Source: Candidatus Manganitrophus morganii (GTDB lineage Bacteria > Nitrospirota > Nitrospiria > SBBL01 > Manganitrophaceae). From it: a stretch of 64,000 bases of DNA. The notes beneath the pieces are model-generated. The model did not search any database and was not told the DNA's origin. It was given only the letters and a program-made list of their open reading frames with translations. A program made the position numbers and the translations under genes. Below are positions 5,699 through 63,582 of this stretch, piece after piece (within the stretch, counting starts at the first letter, position 1; each line of letters opens with the position of its first letter). The stretch spans positions 2,728,001 to 2,792,000 of the forward strand of contig JAJHOH010000001.1 of assembly GCA_021651055.1 (NCBI GenBank), in the 5' to 3' direction.

Positions 5699-5729
5699 AG
5701 AGCCTCATCTGGGCAAATCATTAGAGCTC

Positions 5730-5800
5730 GTCATTCCCGCGAAAGCGGGAATCCAGAAACAGATATCTAAACACTGGATTCCCGCCTGCGCGGGAATGAC
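5730..5800. repeat. Dispersed inverted repeat, CATTCCCGCG family, copy 2
   Basis: GTCATTCCCGCGAAAGCGGG and the inverted partner CCCGCCTGCGCGGGAATGAC flank a short spacer. It is closely related to 653-732. The copy sits just after the tonB-like stop and may also act as a transcript-end hairpin, though there is no T-run. The rest of the gap to 5994 is AT-rich and I see no gene in it. Confidence 0.8.
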
Positions 5801-32443: not shown

Positions 32444-32480
32444 TTGGGAAAGTGAGGAATGAGGGGTGTTTGTTTTAGGA

Positions 32481-32530
32481 GGGGCGCAATTTATTGCGCC
32501 CTCAGGTTGGGCGTGATCAATCACGCCCCG
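32481..32530. repeat. GTAGGGGCG-type repeat, copy 3 (ends degenerate)
   Basis: Two hairpins in a row, GGGGCGCAAT/ATTGCGCCC and GGGCGTGAT/ATCACGCCC, as in copy 4 at 50640-50694. Outer bases of the left end are GGAG rather than GTAG. It lies upstream of the pirin gene. Confidence 0.75.
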
Positions 32531-32559
32531 ACCGAACCTCGCGCCTTATGGAGGAGTCG

Positions 32560-35333: not shown

Positions 35334-36106
35334 AGATGCGTCTCTACGCTATTTTAAAAGCCCTGGTGGGGGCGGTGGCCCTTACGGCGGCGCTGGCCGC
35401 TTGCAGCACCCAGGTCGCGGAGCGAAAGCCGCGGCAGGCGTTGTTCATCGGGGTCGATGTCAGCGGCTCGTTTCAGCAGTCGGGTTATTATGATGACGCC
35501 ATGACTTTTCTCGCCCATTATATTTACGGGCATCTGAACGAACTGGGGGGACTGGCGCCGCCGCGCGAGCTCTTCGTCGGTTCCATCGGCGGAAAGGACA
35601 GCGCCGAGCCGAAAGCCTTTCATCCGATCCATGACTTTACCGGAAAGAGCATCCCGGAGATCGAGGAGCAGCTTCGGGCCTGGTTCGTCCCGATGGATTC
35701 CTTCACCGATTTCAATCCCTTCTTCCAGCAGGTGGCGCGGATTGCGAAGGAGCGCCACCTGACCCTCTCCCCCATCACGGTGATGCTCGTCAGCGATGGG
35801 ATTCCGGACGCCCCGATGCCGGCGAGCGAAACGGGGTCGCTCTATGAGAAGATCGACCTGTCGCCGCTCGAATACCTTTCGAGGAATCTGACGATCCGCT
35901 TGGCGTATGCCAGCCCGAAGGTCGGGGAGAACTGGAGAAAAGAGATCCCGCGGCAGCGGGTTCGCCTCTGGGCGGTAGAGGGAGAGGTGATGAAAGGGTG
36001 GAGCAAGCAGGTGGAGCCGGAGGTGGTCGATCCGGCGGGGCAGGAGCGGTTGTGGAAATGGGTTCGAGACAATGTCGACTATCGGGTCCGGTCCATTTCG
36101 GGCTGA
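35330..36106 (+). CDS. Lipoprotein with vWA-like domain
   Basis: A lipoprotein signal (ALTAALAAC, lipobox near residue 24) precedes a single alpha/beta domain. ALFIGVDVSGSFQQSG carries the DxSxS of a MIDAS metal site; candidate further ligands are Thr in SFTDFNPF and Asp in VMLVSDGIPDAP, in the expected order. Such domains bind protein partners through a metal. Its start overlaps the polytopic membrane gene, so the two are translationally coupled. The stop is followed within 3 nt by the left end of a 174-bp mobile-type repeat. Confidence 0.82.
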   Translation: MKMRLYAILKALVGAVALTAALAACSTQVAERKPRQALFIGVDVSGSFQQSGYYDDAMTFLAHYIYGHLNELGGLAPPRELFVGSIGGKDSAEPKAFHPIHDFTGKSIPEIEEQLRAWFVPMDSFTDFNPFFQQVARIAKERHLTLSPITVMLVSDGIPDAPMPASETGSLYEKIDLSPLEYLSRNLTIRLAYASPKVGENWRKEIPRQRVRLWAVEGEVMKGWSKQVEPEVVDPAGQERLWKWVRDNVDYRVRSISG

Positions 36107-36108
36107 TT

Positions 36109-36282
36109 GAAGCTCCCCGCAGCAAGCTGCGGGGAATCTTCGACCCGAAAGGATGGAAAAACTCTATTTGTATGGTTCGCTCCGCGAACGATGTGGGCGG
36201 AGGCTTCGCGATCTATATACATCTGCACATTCGCGCGTCTAACCTTCGCAGCAAGCTGCGAGGAATGCGACGCGCGTGCGTG
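36109..36282 (+). repeat. Modular palindromic element, copy A (174 bp)
   Basis: Bounded by TT on each side, it begins GAAGCTCCCCGCAGCAAGCT and ends GCGTGCGTG. Hairpin 1 (CCCCGCAG/CTGCGGGG) is followed by a shared block to TTTGTATG. A module of about 58 nt then follows, then hairpin 2 with outer arms GCGCGTC/GACGCGC and inner CGCAG/CTGCG. Copy B (55934-56108) has the same hairpins but the module lies on the other side of hairpin 2 in opposite orientation. Confidence 0.85.
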
Positions 36283-36295
36283 TTCAAGTGGAGCG

Positions 36296-37997: not shown

Positions 37998-38368
37998 TCT
38001 GTTTTTCTCCTGATTAATCATAAGGGACCACGGTCCCCACATGGAAGCAAAATCCCGGCGGGGCGTTCCTCCTCAATGAATATAGAGAAGCGGCGCGCCG
38101 CGGCGGCTCATTTCTGCTTGGTTTTAAGAACCGTTTGAAGTGTAAGAGTCCATCGGTAGGGTGGATGAACCCGCTTCTTGAGGAGGGATCATAATGTAAG
38201 CGGATTCCGCCTCGTGGTTCTGAAACTGCCCACAGAGTATCACACGGGGGGTGAGATGCGCAAGGAAAATGTTTAGTGAGGGGGGGTAGATCAATTAGGA
38301 ATCTGAGAATTAGGAGTGAGGAATGGACACATCCATTCCAAAAACGCCCTCATATGATCGATTGATTC

Positions 38369-50611: not shown

Positions 50612-50639
50612 TACAACGCAAAAAATTGTGTTTGCCTTT

Positions 50640-50694
50640 GTAGGGGCGCAATTTATTGCGCCCTCCGGCTGGGCGTGATCAATCACGCCCCTAC
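50640..50694. repeat. GTAGGGGCG-type repeat, copy 4 (complete)
   Basis: Begins GTAGGGGCGCAAT and ends CACGCCCCTAC. Internally it has two hairpins, GGGGCGCAAT/ATTGCGCCC and GGGCGTGAT/ATCACGCCC. The ends pair with each other, so the whole 55 bp can also form one long hairpin. Confidence 0.85.
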
Positions 50695-52746: not shown

Positions 52747-53316
52747 ATGGCAGAGGAAACCAAATATTGTCTCTGCTGCGGCGAGGATGTTCCGTGGAAT
52801 CGGATCACCCGCGACGGCAATGAGGAGCTGACCTGCCTCTACTGCGGGTTCATCCTGGGGGCGACGCCGCTCCCGGCCAAGACCGCCAAGTGCATCATCA
52901 CCGTCGACGATGTCGCCTTCGTCAACGATCTCTTAAAGGGGATGTTGATCAACAAGGGGCTGGCCGACACGGTGATGACCGCCGCCAACGGGCAGGAGTT
53001 TATCGCCCTCTTCAATGCGCGCCTGACCGCGAAACAGCCGGTCGACATGGTGATCCTCGATCTGGAGATGCCGGTGATGGATGGGATTTCGGCGGCCCGG
53101 ATGATGCGGGCGCTCGAAGGGAAGTATCAGGTCGCCAAATCGCCGATCCTCTTCTTCTCCGCGCGAAAGTCCGATGAGGCGCTCAAGAAACAGCTCGGTG
53201 TCTTTTCCCCCGCCAGCTACGTCAACAAAGGAACGTCGTCCGGCATGGACGGCCTGGTGGAGCGGGTCGATCAGCTGGTGACGCATTTGCTCAATAAGCA
53301 GCGCGCGACTGTCTAA
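52747..53316 (+). CDS. Response regulator with N-terminal zinc ribbon
   Basis: Residues 1-37 form a zinc ribbon (YCLCCGEDVPWNRI ... LTCLYCGFILG, two CxxC pairs). A receiver domain follows: acidic pair IITVDDVAFVNDLL, phosphoacceptor MVILDLEMPVMDG, Ser switch LFFSARKSD and Lys in SYVNKGTSSG. No DNA-binding domain. The start has GAGAGG upstream. Fragments of the 3' end of closely related genes occur at 54369-54404 and 56135-56173, and a copy of its promoter and leader at 56272-56338, so it belonged to a locally repeated family. Confidence 0.9.
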   Translation: MAEETKYCLCCGEDVPWNRITRDGNEELTCLYCGFILGATPLPAKTAKCIITVDDVAFVNDLLKGMLINKGLADTVMTAANGQEFIALFNARLTAKQPVDMVILDLEMPVMDGISAARMMRALEGKYQVAKSPILFFSARKSDEALKKQLGVFSPASYVNKGTSSGMDGLVERVDQLVTHLLNKQRATV

Positions 53317-53466
53317 CCGATTGACTTTCTCTTTCATTTAAATATACTGAAAACAATTTTTATCGGCGGAGGAGCACTCCGTTTTGACGCTGGCAAACAG
53401 CAACGCGCCGCTGTTAAAATAGTGAATGACGGAGAATTGAGCGTTTGAGATTGGCGGAGTTGGGTG

Positions 53467-53772
53467 ATGGGCAAAATTCAAGTTGAGATTCCAAAAGAAG
53501 AGATCGCGGCGTTCTGCAAACGGAATCACATCCGCAAATTCTCACTCTTCGGCTCTGTGTTGCGCGATGATTTCCGGCCGGAGAGCGACATCGATGTTTT
53601 GGTGGAGTTCGATACGGACGCAAAGATTTCTCTCTTCGATTTGATTGATATGGAAGAAGAGCTTGCGTCCATCCTGGGACGGAAAGTCGATTTGATCGAA
53701 GCCTCCTCTCTGCGCAATCCTTTTCGCCGGTACGAGATCCTCCGCACGCAACAGGTCATTTATGACGTTTGA
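53467..53772 (+). CDS. MNT-type nucleotidyltransferase antitoxin
   Basis: The core motif FSLFGSVLRDDFRPESDIDVLVEF (GSxxR...SDxD) near residue 27 is that of minimal nucleotidyltransferases. LIDMEEELASILGRKVDLIE follows. In MNT/HEPN pairs this protein AMPylates or binds the HEPN RNase to silence it. ATG 53467 follows an in-frame GTG. Its 3' end overlaps the HEPN gene by 11 nt. Confidence 0.92.
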   Translation: MGKIQVEIPKEEIAAFCKRNHIRKFSLFGSVLRDDFRPESDIDVLVEFDTDAKISLFDLIDMEEELASILGRKVDLIEASSLRNPFRRYEILRTQQVIYDV

Positions 53773-54121
53773 GTCCCGAGACCCAGCTTATCTTTGGGAT
53801 ATGCTCGATGCGGCCCAGAGCATCCAATCGTTCACCGCGGGAGTAGATCAGGAAGCTTATTTAAAGAACCAGATGATGCAGTATGCGGTGGAGCGCCAGC
53901 TCGGTGTGATCGGAGAGGCGGCCCGCCGAGTGTCTGAAGGGTTTAAAAAGACACATCCTGAAATCCCCTGGCGGGAAATCATCGCTCAACGAAATGTTCT
54001 CACTCATCAGTATGGTGAGATCCGGCATGATCGAATCTGGCAAGTCATCACGGCGGATATCCCTGCTTTGGTCTCATTCTTAAAGCCCCTCATTCCGCCT
54101 CTCCCGCCGGAGGAGCCATAG
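53762..54121 (+). CDS. HEPN-domain toxin (DUF86/HepT-like RNase)
   Basis: The four-helix HEPN fold is indicated by DPAYLWDMLDAAQSIQSFTAG, QYAVERQLGVIGEAARRVS and the active-site RNVLTHQYG (Rx4-6H) near residue 80. HepT-type toxins are RNases neutralised by the partner MNT protein, here encoded by the overlapping upstream gene. It ends in a Pro-rich tail. Complete and probably functional. Confidence 0.92.
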   Translation: MTFESRDPAYLWDMLDAAQSIQSFTAGVDQEAYLKNQMMQYAVERQLGVIGEAARRVSEGFKKTHPEIPWREIIAQRNVLTHQYGEIRHDRIWQVITADIPALVSFLKPLIPPLPPEEP

Positions 54122-54326: not shown

Positions 54327-54360
54327 CATTCCTCATTCGTAATTCAAAAATTCCTAATTG
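54327..54360. repeat. AATTAGGAATT-type repeat: empty site for the 175-bp element
   Basis: CATTCCTCATTCGTAATT followed directly by CAAAAATTCCTAATTG. At 55917-56126 the same sequence is split by the 175-bp element between AATT and CAAAAATT. Confidence 0.85.
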
Positions 54361-54368
54361 ATCTTCTC

Positions 54369-54404
54369 GTGACCCATCTTCTCAAGAAGCGCGCGACGGT
54401 GTGA
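54369..54404 (+). pseudogene. 3'-end remnant of a zinc-ribbon response-regulator gene (1)
   Basis: The frame VTHLLKKRATV-stop corresponds to the last residues VTHLLNKQRATV-stop of the complete gene at 52747-53316. It starts abruptly after a dispersed repeat. Confidence 0.65.
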
Positions 54405-54420
54405 TGGATTCGGAATTTTC

Positions 54421-55749: not shown

Positions 55750-55933
55750 GAGTAAGCACCTCAAAGTTTGAGCGCCGCTGGTCTTGCCAAGAGGGTACCA
55801 GAGCCGATCATTCTGTCAAGGAATGCCTGGATGCCGCGCTTCTCGGTTCATGAGCCGAACCGACCCGAGTTGTCCAATGCGTTGCGGGGGGAACTGCCGG
55901 ATTGATTCTGACTTTGATTCCTCATTCGTAATT

Positions 55934-56108
55934 GAAGCTCCCCTCAGCAAGCTGCGGGGAATCTTCGACCCGAAAGGATGGAAAGACTCTATTTGTATGC
56001 GCGTCTAACCTTCGCAGCAAGCTGCGAGGAATGTGCCCACAGGAATGAAGGCCGAAGCGCCTCTGCTCACATCGTGAGTGAAAGCGAACCATGCGACGCG
56101 CGTGCGTG
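55934..56108 (+). repeat. Modular palindromic element, copy B (175 bp), inserted in a repeat
   Basis: Begins GAAGCTCCCCTCAGCAAGCT, ends GCGTGCGTG, bounded by TT. Comparison with the uninterrupted sequence at 54327-54360 shows that exactly this segment plus one TT is extra. The internal module (about 58 nt, ending in GCGAACCAT) is the inverse of the module in copy A and lies between hairpin 2 and its right outer arm. Confidence 0.85.
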
Positions 56109-56134
56109 TTCAAAAATTCCTAATTGCCCTTCTA

Positions 56135-56173
56135 GTGACCCATCTTCTCAACAAGAAGCGCGCGACGGCATGA
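56135..56173 (+). pseudogene. 3'-end remnant of a zinc-ribbon response-regulator gene (2)
   Basis: The frame VTHLLNKKRATA-stop again equals the C-terminus of the 52747-53316 protein. It follows the same dispersed repeat as remnant 1. Confidence 0.65.
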
Positions 56174-56271
56174 TGGATTAAAGTTCCTGCTGTCTATTCG
56201 GTATGGCTTCCTTCTTCACTGATTCCTCATTTTCACTCCTAATTGAAGCATTGATCCTACCTACTTTCCGG

Positions 56272-56665: not shown

Positions 56666-59600
56666 ATGACAAAAGAAAACCAAATCGAACATGCCTTAAT
56701 CGCTAAACTTAAGGACCTCAAATACACGTATCGCGCTGACATTCGCGACAAAGCCGCGCTTGAGCAGAACTTCCGCCAGAAATTTGAGGCACTTAATCGT
56801 GTCCACCTCACCGAAGCCGAATTCGCCCGCTTGCGCGATGAGATCATTACCGCCGATGTCTTCACTGCCTCACAGGCATTGCGCGAAAAGGGCAAGTTCA
56901 ACCGCGAAGACGGGACCCCGCTGGAATACATGCTGGTCAATCTCCGCGACTGGTGCAAAAATGAGTTTGAAGTCATCAACCAGCTTCGAATCAACACTGA
57001 CAATAGCTTTCAATGCTACGATGTCTTACTCTTGATCAACGGCTTGCCGCTGGTGCAGATCGAATTAAAATCACTACAAATCAGCCCTCGCCGTGCCATG
57101 GAGCAGATCGTCGAATACAAAAAAGACCCCGGCAACGGCTACACCAATTCGCTGCTCTGTTTCATGCAGTTGTTCATCGTCAGCAACGAAACCGACACCC
57201 GCTACTTCGCTAACAACCACAACCAGCATTTTAGCTTTAACGCCGAAGAGCGCTTTTTGCCCATCTACCAGCATGCCGATCAAGACAACAACAAAATCGC
57301 CCACCTGCATGAGTTTGCCGACGACTTCCTCGAAAAGTGCCATCTCGGCCAGTTGATTAGCCGCTACATGGTCCTGGTGCAGAGCGAGCAAAAAATCCTC
57401 GTCATGCGCCCGTACCAAATTTATGCGGTCAAGGCCATCGTCGACTGTATCCACCAGAATCGCGGCAACGGCTATATCTGGCACACCACCGGCAGCGGCA
57501 AGACCCTCACCTCGTTCAAGGCCTCCACGCTGCTGAAAGACAACCCCGATATCGAAAAATGCCTGTTCGTGGTGGACCGCAAAGACCTCGACCGTCAGAC
57601 CCGTGAGGAATTCAACAAATTCCAGGAAGGATGCGTCGAGCACAACACCAACACCGAAGTACTCGTGCGCCGCATGCTGTCGGACGATTACTCCGACAAG
57701 GTGATCGTAACCACCATCCAGAAGCTCGGCCTGGCGCTGGATGAAAGCAGCAAGCGCAACAAGGAGAAGCAAAAAGAGGGCAAGCAGACCTACAAGGAAC
57801 GGCTGGAACCTCTGCGCGACAAGCGCGTGGTTTTCATCTTCGACGAATGCCACCGCTCCCAGTTCGGCGACAACCACAAGGCCATTAAAGAGTTCTTCCC
57901 TAAGGCGCAATTGTTCGGCTTTACCGGCACGCCGATCTTTGAGGAAAACGCCACTTACCAGCAGATCGACGGCAATGTCGGCTCCTACAAAACGACCAAA
58001 GACATCTTCGAGAAACAACTGCACGCCTACACCATCACCCACGCCATCGAAGACAAAAACGTGCTGAGCTTTCACGTCGACTATTTCGGCAAGGAGGGTG
58101 ACAAGAAGCCGAAGAAGGGCCAGACCCCGCCGCCGGAAGCAGTCATCAACGCCATCCTGGAAAAGCACGACAGCGCCACTGGCCAGCGCCGCTTCAACGC
58201 CCTACTGGCCACGGCCTCTATCAATCACGCCATTGAATACTACGAGAAATTCAAAACCCTCCAAGCGCAAAAACAGGCGACGGATGAAAACTTCGAGCAG
58301 CTGCAGATCGCCTGCGTCTTCTCGCCACCGGCCCACGCCGTCGCCACCGACAATAAAAATGATAAAAATGTAAAAGACATTCAGCAGCTACAGGATGACC
58401 TGCCGCAGGAAAAGGCGGATAACCAAGTTGAGCCAGAGAAAAAGAAAGCCGCGCTCGCGGCCATCATCGACGACTACAACCGCCAATACGGCACCAATCA
58501 CAGCCTCAACGAATTCGACCTCTATTATCAGGACGTGCAGCAGCGCATCAAGGACCACAAATACAGCAACGCCGACTACCCGCGCAAAAACAAGATCGAC
58601 ATCACCATCGTGGTGGACATGCTGCTCACTGGCTTCGACTCCAAATACCTCAACACGCTGTACGTGGACAAGAACCTCAAGCACCACGGCTTGATCCAGG
58701 CCTTCTCGCGCACTAATCGCATCCTCAACGACAGCAAGCCCTGGGGCAACGTCCTCGACTTCCGTTATCAGGAAAGCGATGTGGACGACGCCATCGAACT
58801 CTTCTCCGGCGCCGCCATCGACAAGGCGCGGCAAATCTGGTTGGTCGACCCCGCCCCCAAGGTGGTGGAAAAATTTCAGAAGGCCGTGGATCAGCTGCAA
58901 ACCTTTATGCAGGCCAAGGGGCTGCGCTGCGAACCCGCGCAAGTGGTCAACCTCAAGGGTGACACCGCCAAGGCGGAGTTCATTAATCACTTCAAGGAAG
59001 TGCAAAAGCTCAAGACCCAACTGGAGCAGTACACCGACCTTGACGAGCAGAGCAAGCAGACGATCGAAACAAAGCTGCCCACCGACACCCTGCGCAGCTT
59101 CAAGGCCGCCTATCTGGACACAGCGCTTGAACTCAAGCGTAAACAGGGCAGGGGCGATGCCGCGGACCCGGAGGTGCAGCAACTGGAATTCGATCTGGTG
59201 CTGTTTGCCTCGGCACTGATCGACTACGACTACATCATGGCGTTGATTGCCAAATCCACGCAGAAGGGCGGCAAGCAGAAGATGACTCGCGCGCAGCTCA
59301 TCGAATTTATTGGCTCCCACTCCAATCTTGAAGAAGATCGTGAGGACATCATCAGCTACATCAACAGCCTCAAAACGGGCGAGGTTAAGAGCACAAAAGA
59401 AATTAGCGATGATTTCCAGGCCTTCAAGGCGCAACAGGCCGCCGAAAAGCTAGGCCGCATCGCCGCTAAGCACGGCCTGCCAACCGCCGCGCTGCAAGCC
59501 TTCGTCGACGTAATCATCGGCCGCATGATCTTCGATGGCGAACAGCTCACCGACCTGCTTGCGCCCCGGCAACTTAACTGGAAGGCGCGCCGCGAGGCCG

Positions 59601-59686
59601 AGCTGGCGCTGATGGCCGACCTGGTGCCCTATCTGCAAAAGCTCGCAGGCGGGCGCGAGATATCGGGGTTGAATGCGTATGAGTAA
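56666..59686 (+). CDS. hsdR: Type I restriction enzyme subunit R
   Basis: HsdR cleaves and translocates DNA in the type I complex. Residues 1-200 form the PD-(D/E)xK nuclease ([20 protein letters not shown]). Helicase motifs follow: I [14 protein letters not shown] near 275, DEAD-like [13 protein letters not shown] near 390, III [46 protein letters not shown] near 660. The C-terminal 250 residues are the HsdM-binding domain. At 1006 aa it is complete. The gene is the first of the island and overlaps hsdS by 14 nt. Confidence 0.95.
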   Translation: [1006 protein letters not shown]

Positions 59687-60884
59687 GCCAGAGAAGATGG
59701 GTCTGGTGCCGGCGCTGCGCTTTCCTGAGTTTCGGGATTCAGGGGAGTGGGAAGAAAAGAATCTAGGTGACTTATGTGAAATTACAAATGGAAAATCGAA
59801 CGCGCAAGATCACATTGAAGGCGGATTCTATCCACTATTTGATCGTTCGGAGGTGATCAAAAGGTCTAATGAATACCTCTTCGATTGTGAAGCTGTGATC
59901 CTACCTGGTGAAGGAATGCGATTTATTCCGAAATACTATGTTGGAAAATTCGACTTGCACCAAAGGGCCTACGCACTAAAGGATTTTTCTTGTAAAGGTA
60001 AGTTCATTTATTACTCAATGGCTGCGCGAAGTGGCTTGTTGGCTAGAAAAGCAGTTCAGTCAACTGTTCTATCTTTGCGTTTGCCAATATTACAAAACTT
60101 TCCAATCCAAATTCCTGGTGTCCCGGAAGAACAACAAAAAATCGCCGACTGCCTCACCTCCATCGACGAGCTGGTTACCGCCCAAACCCAAAAACTCGAC
60201 GCCCTCAAGGCCCATAAAAAAAGCCTGATGCAGCAACTCTTCCCCGCCGAAGGCGAAACCGTGCCCAAACTCCGCTTTCCTGAGTTTCGGGAGAAGGGAG
60301 GGTGGAAAAGCGATTCAATAGGCAATATTTTCGAAACGACTTCTGGCGGCACTCCAAGCCGCTCAGAAGAAAGCTATTGGGGCGGATACATCCCGTGGAT
60401 CACGACCTCTCTAGTAAATTGTGGAGTGATAACTGAGGCCGAGGAATTCATTACTGAGGATGGGCTGAACAACTCTTCTGCTAAGATATTCCCCGAAGGG
60501 ACTACTTTAGTCGCGATGTATGGCCAGGGCAAAACACGTGGACAGGTGGCATTGTTGGGAATTGCGGCTGCAACGAATCAAGCGTGCGCGGCCATTCTTC
60601 CAAAGAAGGGAATCGAGCCATATTTCGTGTTTCTGAGCTTGGCAGGGCGATACGACGAGTTACGAGATTTGAGCAACAGAGGCGGGCAAGAGAACCTGAG
60701 TCAAGGGTTAATTCGAGAAATTACCTTCTCGTACCCAGCGGATGTTGCGGAGCAAAAAACCATCACGTCTTGCCTTGCCTCCCTCGACAACCTTATCACC
60801 GCCCAAACCCAAAAACTTGACGCCCTCAAGGCTCATAAAAAAGGCCTGATGCAGCAGCTTTTCCCGGCCATGGACGAGGTGTGA
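59673..60884 (+). CDS. hsdS: Type I restriction enzyme specificity subunit S
   Basis: HsdS selects the bipartite target. Two target-recognition domains are separated by a conserved central region and a C-terminal copy of it: AQTQKLDALKAHKKSLMQQL near residue 170 and AQTQKLDALKAHKKGLMQQL near 375. Each TRD is introduced by LRFPEFR (residues 16 and 200). The DNA of these repeats is nearly identical (60175-60255 and 60797-60870), a substrate for domain exchange. The TRDs themselves have more AT-rich codons than the repeats. ATG 59679 is an alternative start. Confidence 0.94.
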   Translation: MRMSKPEKMGLVPALRFPEFRDSGEWEEKNLGDLCEITNGKSNAQDHIEGGFYPLFDRSEVIKRSNEYLFDCEAVILPGEGMRFIPKYYVGKFDLHQRAYALKDFSCKGKFIYYSMAARSGLLARKAVQSTVLSLRLPILQNFPIQIPGVPEEQQKIADCLTSIDELVTAQTQKLDALKAHKKSLMQQLFPAEGETVPKLRFPEFREKGGWKSDSIGNIFETTSGGTPSRSEESYWGGYIPWITTSLVNCGVITEAEEFITEDGLNNSSAKIFPEGTTLVAMYGQGKTRGQVALLGIAAATNQACAAILPKKGIEPYFVFLSLAGRYDELRDLSNRGGQENLSQGLIREITFSYPADVAEQKTITSCLASLDNLITAQTQKLDALKAHKKGLMQQLFPAMDEV

Positions 60885-60886
60885 GT

Positions 60887-61951
60887 ATGAGCCTGCAAGC
60901 TATCGCTAACGAACTTAAAGATTTGAATGACTACGTTGTCCTGATTTTTGCTTTTAATGCAACCGGCAAGACGCGATTATCTGTTGCCTATAAGGATGCA
61001 ACAAAAGACCTTGAAACAGGAAAACATGCGGGCGTCTATTACAACGCCTTCAGTGAAGACTTGTTTGTCTGGGATAACGATGAGGAAAACGACGGCGCAA
61101 ATATGCGGCTAAAGGTTCTGCCCAGCAGCCTAAATAGATTTCATAGTTTTCTTTATGAAAATCCAGACATAGTTATAGAAAAGCTGGCGTTGTACGCACC
61201 GAAGTATAGTTTCCGATTTACCCCATATAACGATGCGGAGAAAGGAATCGAATCTGTTACGTTCTTTTTGGAGAGCGACGAAAATGCTGTTATTAAAATT
61301 TCACGCGGAGAAGAGCGAATTTTCGTCTGGTGTTTTTATTTAGCACTTCTGGAGGTAGAGGGTTGGGCGGATGAGCAGGACGCACATATATTTATTGATG
61401 ATCCGGTCTCTAGTCTCGATGATCACAATATCTTTATTACTGCCAACACTATTCTTCAGCAGATAGAAAAGCACTTCAAGAAGAAGCGCATTATCGTCAC
61501 AACTCACCATATTGGTTTGATGAATATCTTATACAACATGTTGAAAAAAGGTGAAAAGAGTGACCGATATAAAAATATAACTAGCGTAAAAATTCTAAAA
61601 CATACTGGTGATGGATTGGTGCTCGAAGATTTAACGAAAAATGTGTTCCTTTATCATTTGCACTTATTGCAAGTATTAGATGAAGCAAGAAAAGGGCAGT
61701 TATACACATACCACTTTGCTTTGCTTAGGCAGCTTCTCGAAAACGTTGCTTCCTTCTTAGGCACGGGCCAATTTAGCCACGCCCTGTCTCAAATAGGCGT
61801 CGCCAAGCCTGATGACGCAGCTAACGTCATCAATACGCATTCTCATAAGAATGTCTATTACGACCAAACTGAAATGATGAACTCCACTGAACAAGACTAT
61901 TTCAATGACATATTCAGCAAGCTCATTGAAACGTATCAGTTTGTGATTTAG
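60887..61951 (+). CDS. prrC: PrrC-type tRNA anticodon nuclease (restriction guard)
   Basis: In E. coli PrrC cleaves tRNA-Lys in the anticodon loop when phage proteins disable the type I enzyme that normally masks it. Here the NTPase domain has FAFNATGKTRLSVAYKD (residues 21-37), YYNAFSEDLFVWDNDEENDG (51-70), signature SRGEE (139-143), Walker B HIFIDDPVSSLDDHN (167-181) and TTHH (205-208). The C-terminal domain has FLYHLHLLQ, YHFALLRQLLENVASFLG with Arg281 and Glu285, and NTHSHK with His318/320, matching the R-x3-E...H catalytic set of PrrC. GAGGTG precedes ATG 60887. It sits between hsdS and hsdM. Codons are AT-richer than those of hsdR. Confidence 0.93.
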   Translation: MSLQAIANELKDLNDYVVLIFAFNATGKTRLSVAYKDATKDLETGKHAGVYYNAFSEDLFVWDNDEENDGANMRLKVLPSSLNRFHSFLYENPDIVIEKLALYAPKYSFRFTPYNDAEKGIESVTFFLESDENAVIKISRGEERIFVWCFYLALLEVEGWADEQDAHIFIDDPVSSLDDHNIFITANTILQQIEKHFKKKRIIVTTHHIGLMNILYNMLKKGEKSDRYKNITSVKILKHTGDGLVLEDLTKNVFLYHLHLLQVLDEARKGQLYTYHFALLRQLLENVASFLGTGQFSHALSQIGVAKPDDAANVINTHSHKNVYYDQTEMMNSTEQDYFNDIFSKLIETYQFVI

Positions 61952-61962
61952 GTGGGTTGACT

Positions 61963-63582
61963 ATGACCAAAGAACAACTCAGCCAACTCGGCGAGACCCT
62001 CTGGGACATCGCCGACCAGCTACGCGGCGCGATGAACGCCGACGACTTCCGCGACTATATGTTGTCGTTCCTATTCTTGCGCTACCTCTCCGACAACTAC
62101 GAGGCTGCGGCGCAGAAGGAGCTGGGGCGCGACTATCCCGCGCCGGCAAAAGACGAGCGGCGCGCGCCGCTGGCGATCTGGTACGACGCCAATGCCGAAG
62201 ACGTTACCGACTTCGAGAAACAGATGCGTCTCAAAGTGCATTATGTGATCGAGCCGCAATACCTGTGGAGCAGCATCTATGAAATGGCGCGCACCCAGCA
62301 CGACGACCTGCTGGATACCCTGTGGAAGGGCTTCAAGTACATAGAAGAGAAATCCTTTGCCAGCACTTTTCAGGGCCTGTTCTCCGAGATCAACCTGCAT
62401 TCTGAGAAGCTGGGCAAGACGCCCAAGGCGCGCAATGAAAAGCTGTGCACCATTATAAAAAAAATCGCCGAGGGCATTGCCCAGTTCAGCACCACCACCG
62501 ACATCCTCGGCGATGCCTATGAATACCTGCTAGGCGAGTTCGCCGCCGGGTCGGGTAAAAAGGCGGGCGAGTTCTACACCCCGCAGCAAATCTCCACGAT
62601 TCTTTCCCGCATCGTGACGCTGGACAGCCAGGAACCGGCCACGGGCAAAAAGAAAAAACTCGATCAGGTGTACGACTTTGCCTGCGGTTCCGGCTCGCTG
62701 CTGTTGAATGTCCGCAAGCAACTCGGCAAGGGCGGCATCGGCAAAATCTACGGCCAGGAAAAGAACATCACCACCTATAACCTGGCGCGCATGAACATGC
62801 TGCTGCACGGAGTGAAAGATACCGAGTTCGAGATTCACCACGGCGACTCCTTGCTCAATGAGTGGGAAATCCTCAAAGAGATGAACCCGGCCAAAAAGCT
62901 GCAATTCGATGCCGTGGTCGCCAACCCGCCTTTCAGTTACCGCTGGGAACCCAATGATGCGTTGGGCGAGGATTTCCGCTTCAAGAATTACGGCCTCGCC
63001 CCGAAATCGGCCGCCGACTTCGCTTTTCTGTTGCACGGCTTCCACTTCTTGAGTGACAGCGGTGTGATGGCAATCATTTTGCCCCACGGCGTGCTGTTCC
63101 GTGGCGGCGCGGAAGAGCGCATCCGCACCAAGCTGCTGAGAGACGGCCATATCGACACCGTGATCGGCCTGCCCGCCAACCTCTTTTTCTCCACCGGCAT
63201 CCCAGTTTGTATTCTGGTCCTAAAACGCTGCAAAAGACCCGATGACGTGTTGTTCATTAATGCATCCGAACATTTTGAAAAGGGCAAACGCCAAAACCGC
63301 CTGTTGCCGGAGCACATCGACAAGATTATCGAAGCCTATCAGTACCGCAGGGAAGATGAACGCTACTCACGACGTGTTTCAATGGAGGAAATAGAGAAAA
63401 ACGATTACAACCTGAATATCTCGCGTTACGTAAGCACAGCCACTCCTGAGGAACAAATTGACTTACAGGTGGTTAACACAGAATTGACAGACCTACAAAA
63501 TAGGATTGTTGAAAACACAAAGAAACATAATGAGTTTCTTAAAGAACTTGGTCTGCCACCCTTGCCTGGCAAAGAAGATTGA
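61963..63582 (+). CDS. hsdM: Type I restriction-modification methyltransferase subunit M
   Basis: HsdM makes N6-methyladenine with S-adenosylmethionine. The N-terminal helical domain (TLWDIADQLRGAMNADDFRDYMLSFLFLRYLSDNY) precedes the SAM site VYDFACGSGSLLLNVRKQL near residue 240 and the catalytic AVVANPPFSYRW (NPPF) near 325; YTPQQISTILSRIV lies just before. Length (539 aa) is usual. AGGTGG supports ATG 61963; TTG 61957 is possible. It follows prrC by 11 nt and closes the operon. Confidence 0.95.
   Translation: MTKEQLSQLGETLWDIADQLRGAMNADDFRDYMLSFLFLRYLSDNYEAAAQKELGRDYPAPAKDERRAPLAIWYDANAEDVTDFEKQMRLKVHYVIEPQYLWSSIYEMARTQHDDLLDTLWKGFKYIEEKSFASTFQGLFSEINLHSEKLGKTPKARNEKLCTIIKKIAEGIAQFSTTTDILGDAYEYLLGEFAAGSGKKAGEFYTPQQISTILSRIVTLDSQEPATGKKKKLDQVYDFACGSGSLLLNVRKQLGKGGIGKIYGQEKNITTYNLARMNMLLHGVKDTEFEIHHGDSLLNEWEILKEMNPAKKLQFDAVVANPPFSYRWEPNDALGEDFRFKNYGLAPKSAADFAFLLHGFHFLSDSGVMAIILPHGVLFRGGAEERIRTKLLRDGHIDTVIGLPANLFFSTGIPVCILVLKRCKRPDDVLFINASEHFEKGKRQNRLLPEHIDKIIEAYQYRREDERYSRRVSMEEIEKNDYNLNISRYVSTATPEEQIDLQVVNTELTDLQNRIVENTKKHNEFLKELGLPPLPGKED

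Follow-up and report, generated by a model that had tools for sequence, protein, structure and literature searches.

How does a short sequence that carries no gene come to sit inside a repeat, and what would move it? The case considered here lies in a window of 64,000 nucleotides, the whole stretch of DNA that was analysed, from the 4.29-Mb single-contig genome of Candidatus Manganitrophus morganii (G000). The genus belongs to the Nitrospirota, class Nitrospiria. A preliminary description of the window had proposed a mobile element with base-exact ends, two hairpins of common core and no coding capacity, moved in trans. It had also suggested a search of the genome and its relatives, a comparison of filled with empty sites and a search for a transposase with matching ends. 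Comparisons within the genus used three genomes, G000, G002 and G004, the last of which contains CP114561.1 of Ca. Manganitrophus sp. GAC4. The search for uninterrupted sites took in five sister genomes. Matches were also read in G033 and G035, other genomes of the class, and in G029.

Two copies of the element in the window

The repeat ATTCCTCATTCGTAATT followed directly by CAAAAATTCC is unbroken at 54328-54354. Read directly at 55917-56120, it is broken by a 175-bp sequence, GAAG...GTG (55934-56108, top strand), and a second TT (56109-56110). The split repeat described earlier at 55917-56126 is therefore real. This 175-bp sequence, copy A, has TT on either side (55932-55933 and 56109-56110). 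It opens with hairpin 1 (55934-55966), whose outer GAAG/CTTC stem extends to the left terminus. The inner stem of hairpin 1 is 9-10 bp long and reads CTCCCCTCAGC/GCTGCGGGG in copy A, with one mismatch. Hairpin 2 (55999-56029) combines an inner stem with, in this genus, an outer GCGCGTC/GACGCGC stem, the 3' arm of which lies at 56095-56101. Its inner hairpin (56009-56029) has a GCAGCAAGCTGCG core identical to that of hairpin 1. A module of ~60 bp, module Y (56030-56092), separates hairpin 2 from the right end, GCGACGCGCGTGCGTG (56093-56108).

Copy B (174 bp, 36109-36282, top strand) starts two bases past the stop codon TGA at 36104-36106 and is flanked by TT at 36107-36108 and 36283-36284. Its site in G004 is uninterrupted and reads GATCAAG. 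It had been described as the same element, and it does have the same ends and both hairpins, but its sequence is not the same 175 bp, since the order of modules differs. The two copies have hairpin 1, linker, hairpin 2 and right end in common. The extra ~60 bp lies after hairpin 2 in copy A and before it in copy B, where module X (36170-36232) precedes hairpin 2 (36233-36263; outer 3' arm GACGCGC, 36269-36275). Module X aligns to the reverse complement of module Y. In L014, a copy of 227 bp, the two modules flank hairpin 2 and form with it a single long imperfect palindrome.

The stretch at 54327-54360 (top strand; target ATTCA, 54342-54346) had been taken for the empty site of copy A. It is uninterrupted, but it is not the same locus before insertion. 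Its likeness to the host sequence around copy A extends rightward past the insertion (54343-54389 against 56109-56155, 91% over 47 nt), and pieces of the same host repeat lie inverted at 38288-38328 and elsewhere; the stretch thus represents a paralogous copy of a host repeat that is dispersed. A dispersed repeat, CAAGAAGCGCGCGACGG...GATGGATT, is found at 53295-53322, 54383-54410 and 56152-56179 and belongs to the sequence broken by copy A.

The window has several other features. Type I restriction-modification genes adjoin copy A at 56666-63582, with HsdR at 56666-59686, HsdS at 59673-60884 (internal repeats 60129-60248/60750-60869) and then open reading frames at 60881-61951 and 61957-63582. 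At 53464-54121, nucleotidyltransferase (MNT-like) and HepT-like genes overlap, as in an MNT/HepT toxin-antitoxin pair. A different double-hairpin repeat (GGGGCGCAATTTATTGCGCCC ... GGGCGTGATCAATCACGCCC) is present at 32466-32532 and 50628-50694, the two being 90% identical. Palindromic repeats of the form CGTCATTCCCGCG...CGGGAATCCAG at 652-681, 5729-5758 and 5774-5800 resemble CGTC-type REPs.

Copy number and distribution

The right-end 20-mer, allowing up to 2 mismatches, matched 27 times in the host genome, 14 in G002 and 25 in G004, though the matches that are most degenerate may be due to chance; a reversed control pattern matched 0 times. The left-end 17-mer (up to 1 mismatch) matched 27 times in the host genome against 0 for its control, so the recurrence of these ends is not accidental. 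Copies range from 45 to 229 bp, with sizes mainly of 45, 105, 108-118, 165-176 and 227-229 bp. Those at different sites are 97-100% identical, and several 117-bp copies are identical between different sites and between species. The family is also found in other genomes of the class, on Manganitrophus plasmids, and in the Desulfobacterota (Ca. Desulfaltia, Desulfobacterales, Desulfobacteraceae). Searches of Rfam and of phage records and viral contigs gave no match to the element. At L010, L003, L012 and L023 and their orthologs, presence among G000, G002 and G004 is not tree-like, hinting that copies were lost, passed on by gene flow or inserted more than once at one site.

The insertion rule

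For 25 copies the two flanks were joined and looked for in the five sister genomes; the same was done for copies found only in G002 or only in G004. For 25 filled sites a sister species has the orthologous site uninterrupted, so the element is mobile, as had been proposed, and it has moved since the species diverged. The uninterrupted site is exactly ATTCA in 12 cases, and the remainder carry a substitution or a small indel. The comparison gives a simple rule: ATTCA becomes ATT-[GAAG...GTG]-TTCA, so that a site gains the element and one extra TT. The ends can be placed to the base, as claimed, with GAAG and GCGTGCGTG as constant termini and TT on both sides, within the target ATTCA. TT occurs at both junctions and once at uninterrupted sites, which fits a duplicated TT and a carried TT alike.

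Flank conservation is limited to ATT on the left, TTCA on the right and a preferred A, giving a target information of 5-6 bases. TTCA (TGAA on the bottom strand) is present in 51-53 of 53 and in 21 of 21 copies, a fixed tetra- or pentanucleotide flank of the kind that IS200/IS605 mobilisation expects. The only terminal inverted repeat is TTGAA/TTCA(A), 4-5 nt with the target bases included. An IS91-type target, GAAC, was rejected because its C belongs inside the element and varies between families. Among the Desulfobacterota copies TT is preceded by either A or T, and TTCA never varies. In Ca. Desulfaltia bathyphila (L104) a RAYT gene lies between the arms of a perfect 27-bp inverted repeat, and a copy breaks one of these arms. 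Deleting the element and one TT in silico gives the arm back exactly, and so confirms the insertion rule in another phylum.

With all orthologs counted, target positions differ at 15.6% against a background of 6.1%. When each site is represented by a single ortholog, the target shows no significant excess of substitutions (P=0.18), and the idea that the element overwrites its target was rejected on this ground. Small indels, counted in the same way, are enriched at uninterrupted junctions (5 in 125 target positions against 27 in 2848, P=0.01). Some uninterrupted sites may therefore be losses.

Hairpin conservation and shrinkage in place

In a comparison of 37 distinct sequences, Watson-Crick pairs fill 94% of hairpin 1 cells, against 42% after a one-base slide, and the stem shows compensatory changes from GCAGC/GCTGC to GCCCC/GGGGC. 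Mismatches in hairpin 1, read on the top strand, are A-C rather than G-T by 15:4, with 10 of the 15 A-C mismatches being one shared variant. On the bottom strand the A-C mismatches become G-T wobbles, which weakly favours the bottom strand as the one that folds. The whole single strands of copy B fold better than shuffles (z -3.0 and -3.5), and those of copy A fold no better than shuffles (z -0.6 and -0.4).

The size classes differ at orthologous sites. At L027, L028 and L029 the host genome has 45 bp where sister species have copies of 105-117 bp, and at L010 the arrangement is reversed. The corresponding gap at these four sites, 47 against 107-119 bp, is that of a core deletion between palindromes. 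The 45-bp forms thus come about where they stand, through deletion between the cores of hairpins 1 and 2. As mobile units in their own right they were rejected at the three G000 sites, where a sister species has the 105-117-bp copy at the same place.

Relationship to IS200

Read along the bottom strand, the element is (T)TGAA^CACGCACGCGCGTCGCATTCC-hairpin ... GATTCC-hairpin-AGCTTCAA^; its ends are otherwise written TGAA^CACGCACGCGCG... and ...GGGGAGCTTCAA. The corresponding reading for IS200-type elements elsewhere in the class is TTCAA^CTTGTGATTCC-hairpin-tnpA ... GATACC-hairpin-AGCTTCAT^. One end of our element is identical at 30 of 31 positions to the right end of an IS200 with an intact tnpA (score 57), whereas the best right-end score among 2000 composition-matched control hairpins was 30. 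The other end has ATTCC and the hairpin loop in common with the IS200 left end (score 25; 9 of the 2000 controls were as good), a likeness that taken alone would argue only weakly for kinship. In G033 and G035 the Manganitrophus element finds its genome matches at the right end of this IS200 and, in G035, also in one single-hairpin mini-copy; in G029 the match adjoins a decayed tnpA. These IS200s (G033, G035 and others) belong to the single-gene IS200/IS605 family with a Y1 TnpA. They resemble the element in the right end, in the ATTCC foot and left hairpin loop, and in single-hairpin mini-copies, one of which is in G035. Unlike the element, they carry tnpA, have a left flank of TTCAA and not TTGAA, and have a shorter left linker.

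No copy contains a transposase gene, for which 45-229 bp would not suffice. Searched with both end patterns, G000, G002 and G004 yielded no autonomous copy with exactly these ends: most ends have a partner not more than 250 bp away, the others are solitary or degenerate, and nowhere are two ends far enough apart to hold such a gene. All of this is consistent with the proposed lack of coding capacity and movement in trans. As to a transposase with matching ends, the class holds an IS200 right end identical at 30 of 31 positions, but no transposase with exactly these ends was found. The complete host genome has no Y1_Tnp match at E<=1, nor do three of the five sisters (G001, G003, G004), and no relative of the IS200 TnpA was found in G000. 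This absence lowers the case for IS200/IS605 mobilisation in the present genome, not in its ancestors. The replication-strand bias expected for IS200/IS605, toward the lagging-strand template, is a trend only (27 of 43, P=0.13).

A probable palindrome-associated transposable element

IS200/IS605 elements have a hairpin at each end, use a fixed tetra- or pentanucleotide and make no duplication (PMC7290912, PMC6006769). Palindrome-associated transposable elements (PATEs) have been defined, and repeat-mediated core deletion between their palindromes described (PMC3119063). The PATEs of Haloquadratum and other prokaryotes (PMC3119063, PMC7290912) are, like our element, gene-free with near-terminal palindromes like those of IS200/IS605. 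They too show strain-specific insertions, core deletion between two palindromes, and recent activity with few or no intact transposases. PATEs are further described as having neither terminal inverted repeats nor a clear target duplication; our element has the 4-5 nt TTGAA/TTCA(A) and a TT that may be duplicated or carried. The relation of the near-terminal palindromes to IS200/IS605 is seen here at one end (30/31) and more weakly at the other. Our element differs from known PATEs in being a new sequence family with optional inverted modules X and Y, common to Nitrospirota and Desulfobacterota, and in that no cognate transposase was found in its host.

We consider it likely that the element is a PATE, related to IS200/IS605 but not autonomous, and that a Y1 TnpA moves it in trans as single-stranded DNA. 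Its anatomy gives good support to the view that it behaves as an IS200/IS605 passenger. Mobilisation by a TnpA is what we infer from this likeness, and the enzyme would most likely be of the IS200 type. Acting in trans, a Y1 (HUH) TnpA would recognise the hairpins of a single strand, presumably the bottom strand of the window. Cuts 3' of (T)TGAA at one terminus and 3' of ...GCTTCAA at the opposite one would release a single-stranded circle of the element. The circle would then insert 3' of another (T)TGAA, which is ATTCA on the top strand. The doubled TT would come from the ambiguous alignment of an insertion that duplicates no target bases, whichever side the TT belongs to. Copies would later shrink in place to 45-bp remnants by deletion between the near-identical hairpin cores.

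Other explanations

The family could instead be an orphan of Nitrospirota and Desulfobacterota that moves without any Y1/HUH transposase, through an unrecognised enzyme exchanging strands at a TT core in ATTCA, which we think unlikely. A site-specific recombinase with a 2-bp TT core (a serine recombinase, IS607-like or IS110-type) would swap R^TT with the target A^TTCA and leave TT at both ends. Both the doubled TT, single at uninterrupted sites, and a host without a Y1 enzyme would be expected of it. However, the target information of 5-6 bases falls short of the longer targets that IS110-type systems pair with a guide, the compensatory changes in the hairpins suggest single-stranded substrates, and the IS200 right end matches at 30 of 31 positions. 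We regard such a recombinase as improbable.

A RAYT (TnpA_REP) might also move the element, which would make it a REP-like repeat and not an IS200 passenger. GTAG-tagged (RAYT) and CGTC-tagged REPs (PMC3733652, PMC6006769) are likewise short intergenic palindromes in many copies, the CGTC type without a dedicated transposase, and RAYT-like Y1 proteins occur in many genomes that have our palindromic, intergenic, gene-free family. Unlike REPs, the element has two distinct ends, a defined target, documented uninterrupted sites, a GAAG and not a GTAG foot, and no association with RAYT genes. Among ~50 Y1 loci scanned, one had an adjacent copy, that of Ca. Desulfaltia bathyphila. We rejected this RAYT and copy as a cognate pair: removal of the element and one TT leaves the perfect 27-bp inverted repeat of the RAYT locus, so the copy is a separate insertion into it. 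G000, G001, G003 and G004 have no RAYT, and we find this explanation quite improbable. Least probable is that an old element was mostly lost, with uninterrupted sites made by hairpin-assisted deletion between the two TTs: the indel enrichment and the non-tree-like presence speak for it, but copies at different sites are 97-100% identical within and between species, many sites are uninterrupted in both sister species and the same rule holds in another phylum; loss may operate alongside insertion.

Implications

The preferred reading, a PATE, leaves a puzzle: near-identical copies occupy different sites in a complete genome without a detectable Y1 transposase. The enzyme may therefore have been lost, may come from elsewhere (Manganitrophus plasmids carry copies) or may be of another kind. 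The missing enzyme and the cross-phylum distribution are the points of interest. The element is a well-delimited new sequence family of an already known sort of non-autonomous element. As a bacterial family of the PATE type it offers an insertion rule exact to the base, core deletions in place and many uninterrupted sites on record, with three genomes of one genus to compare.
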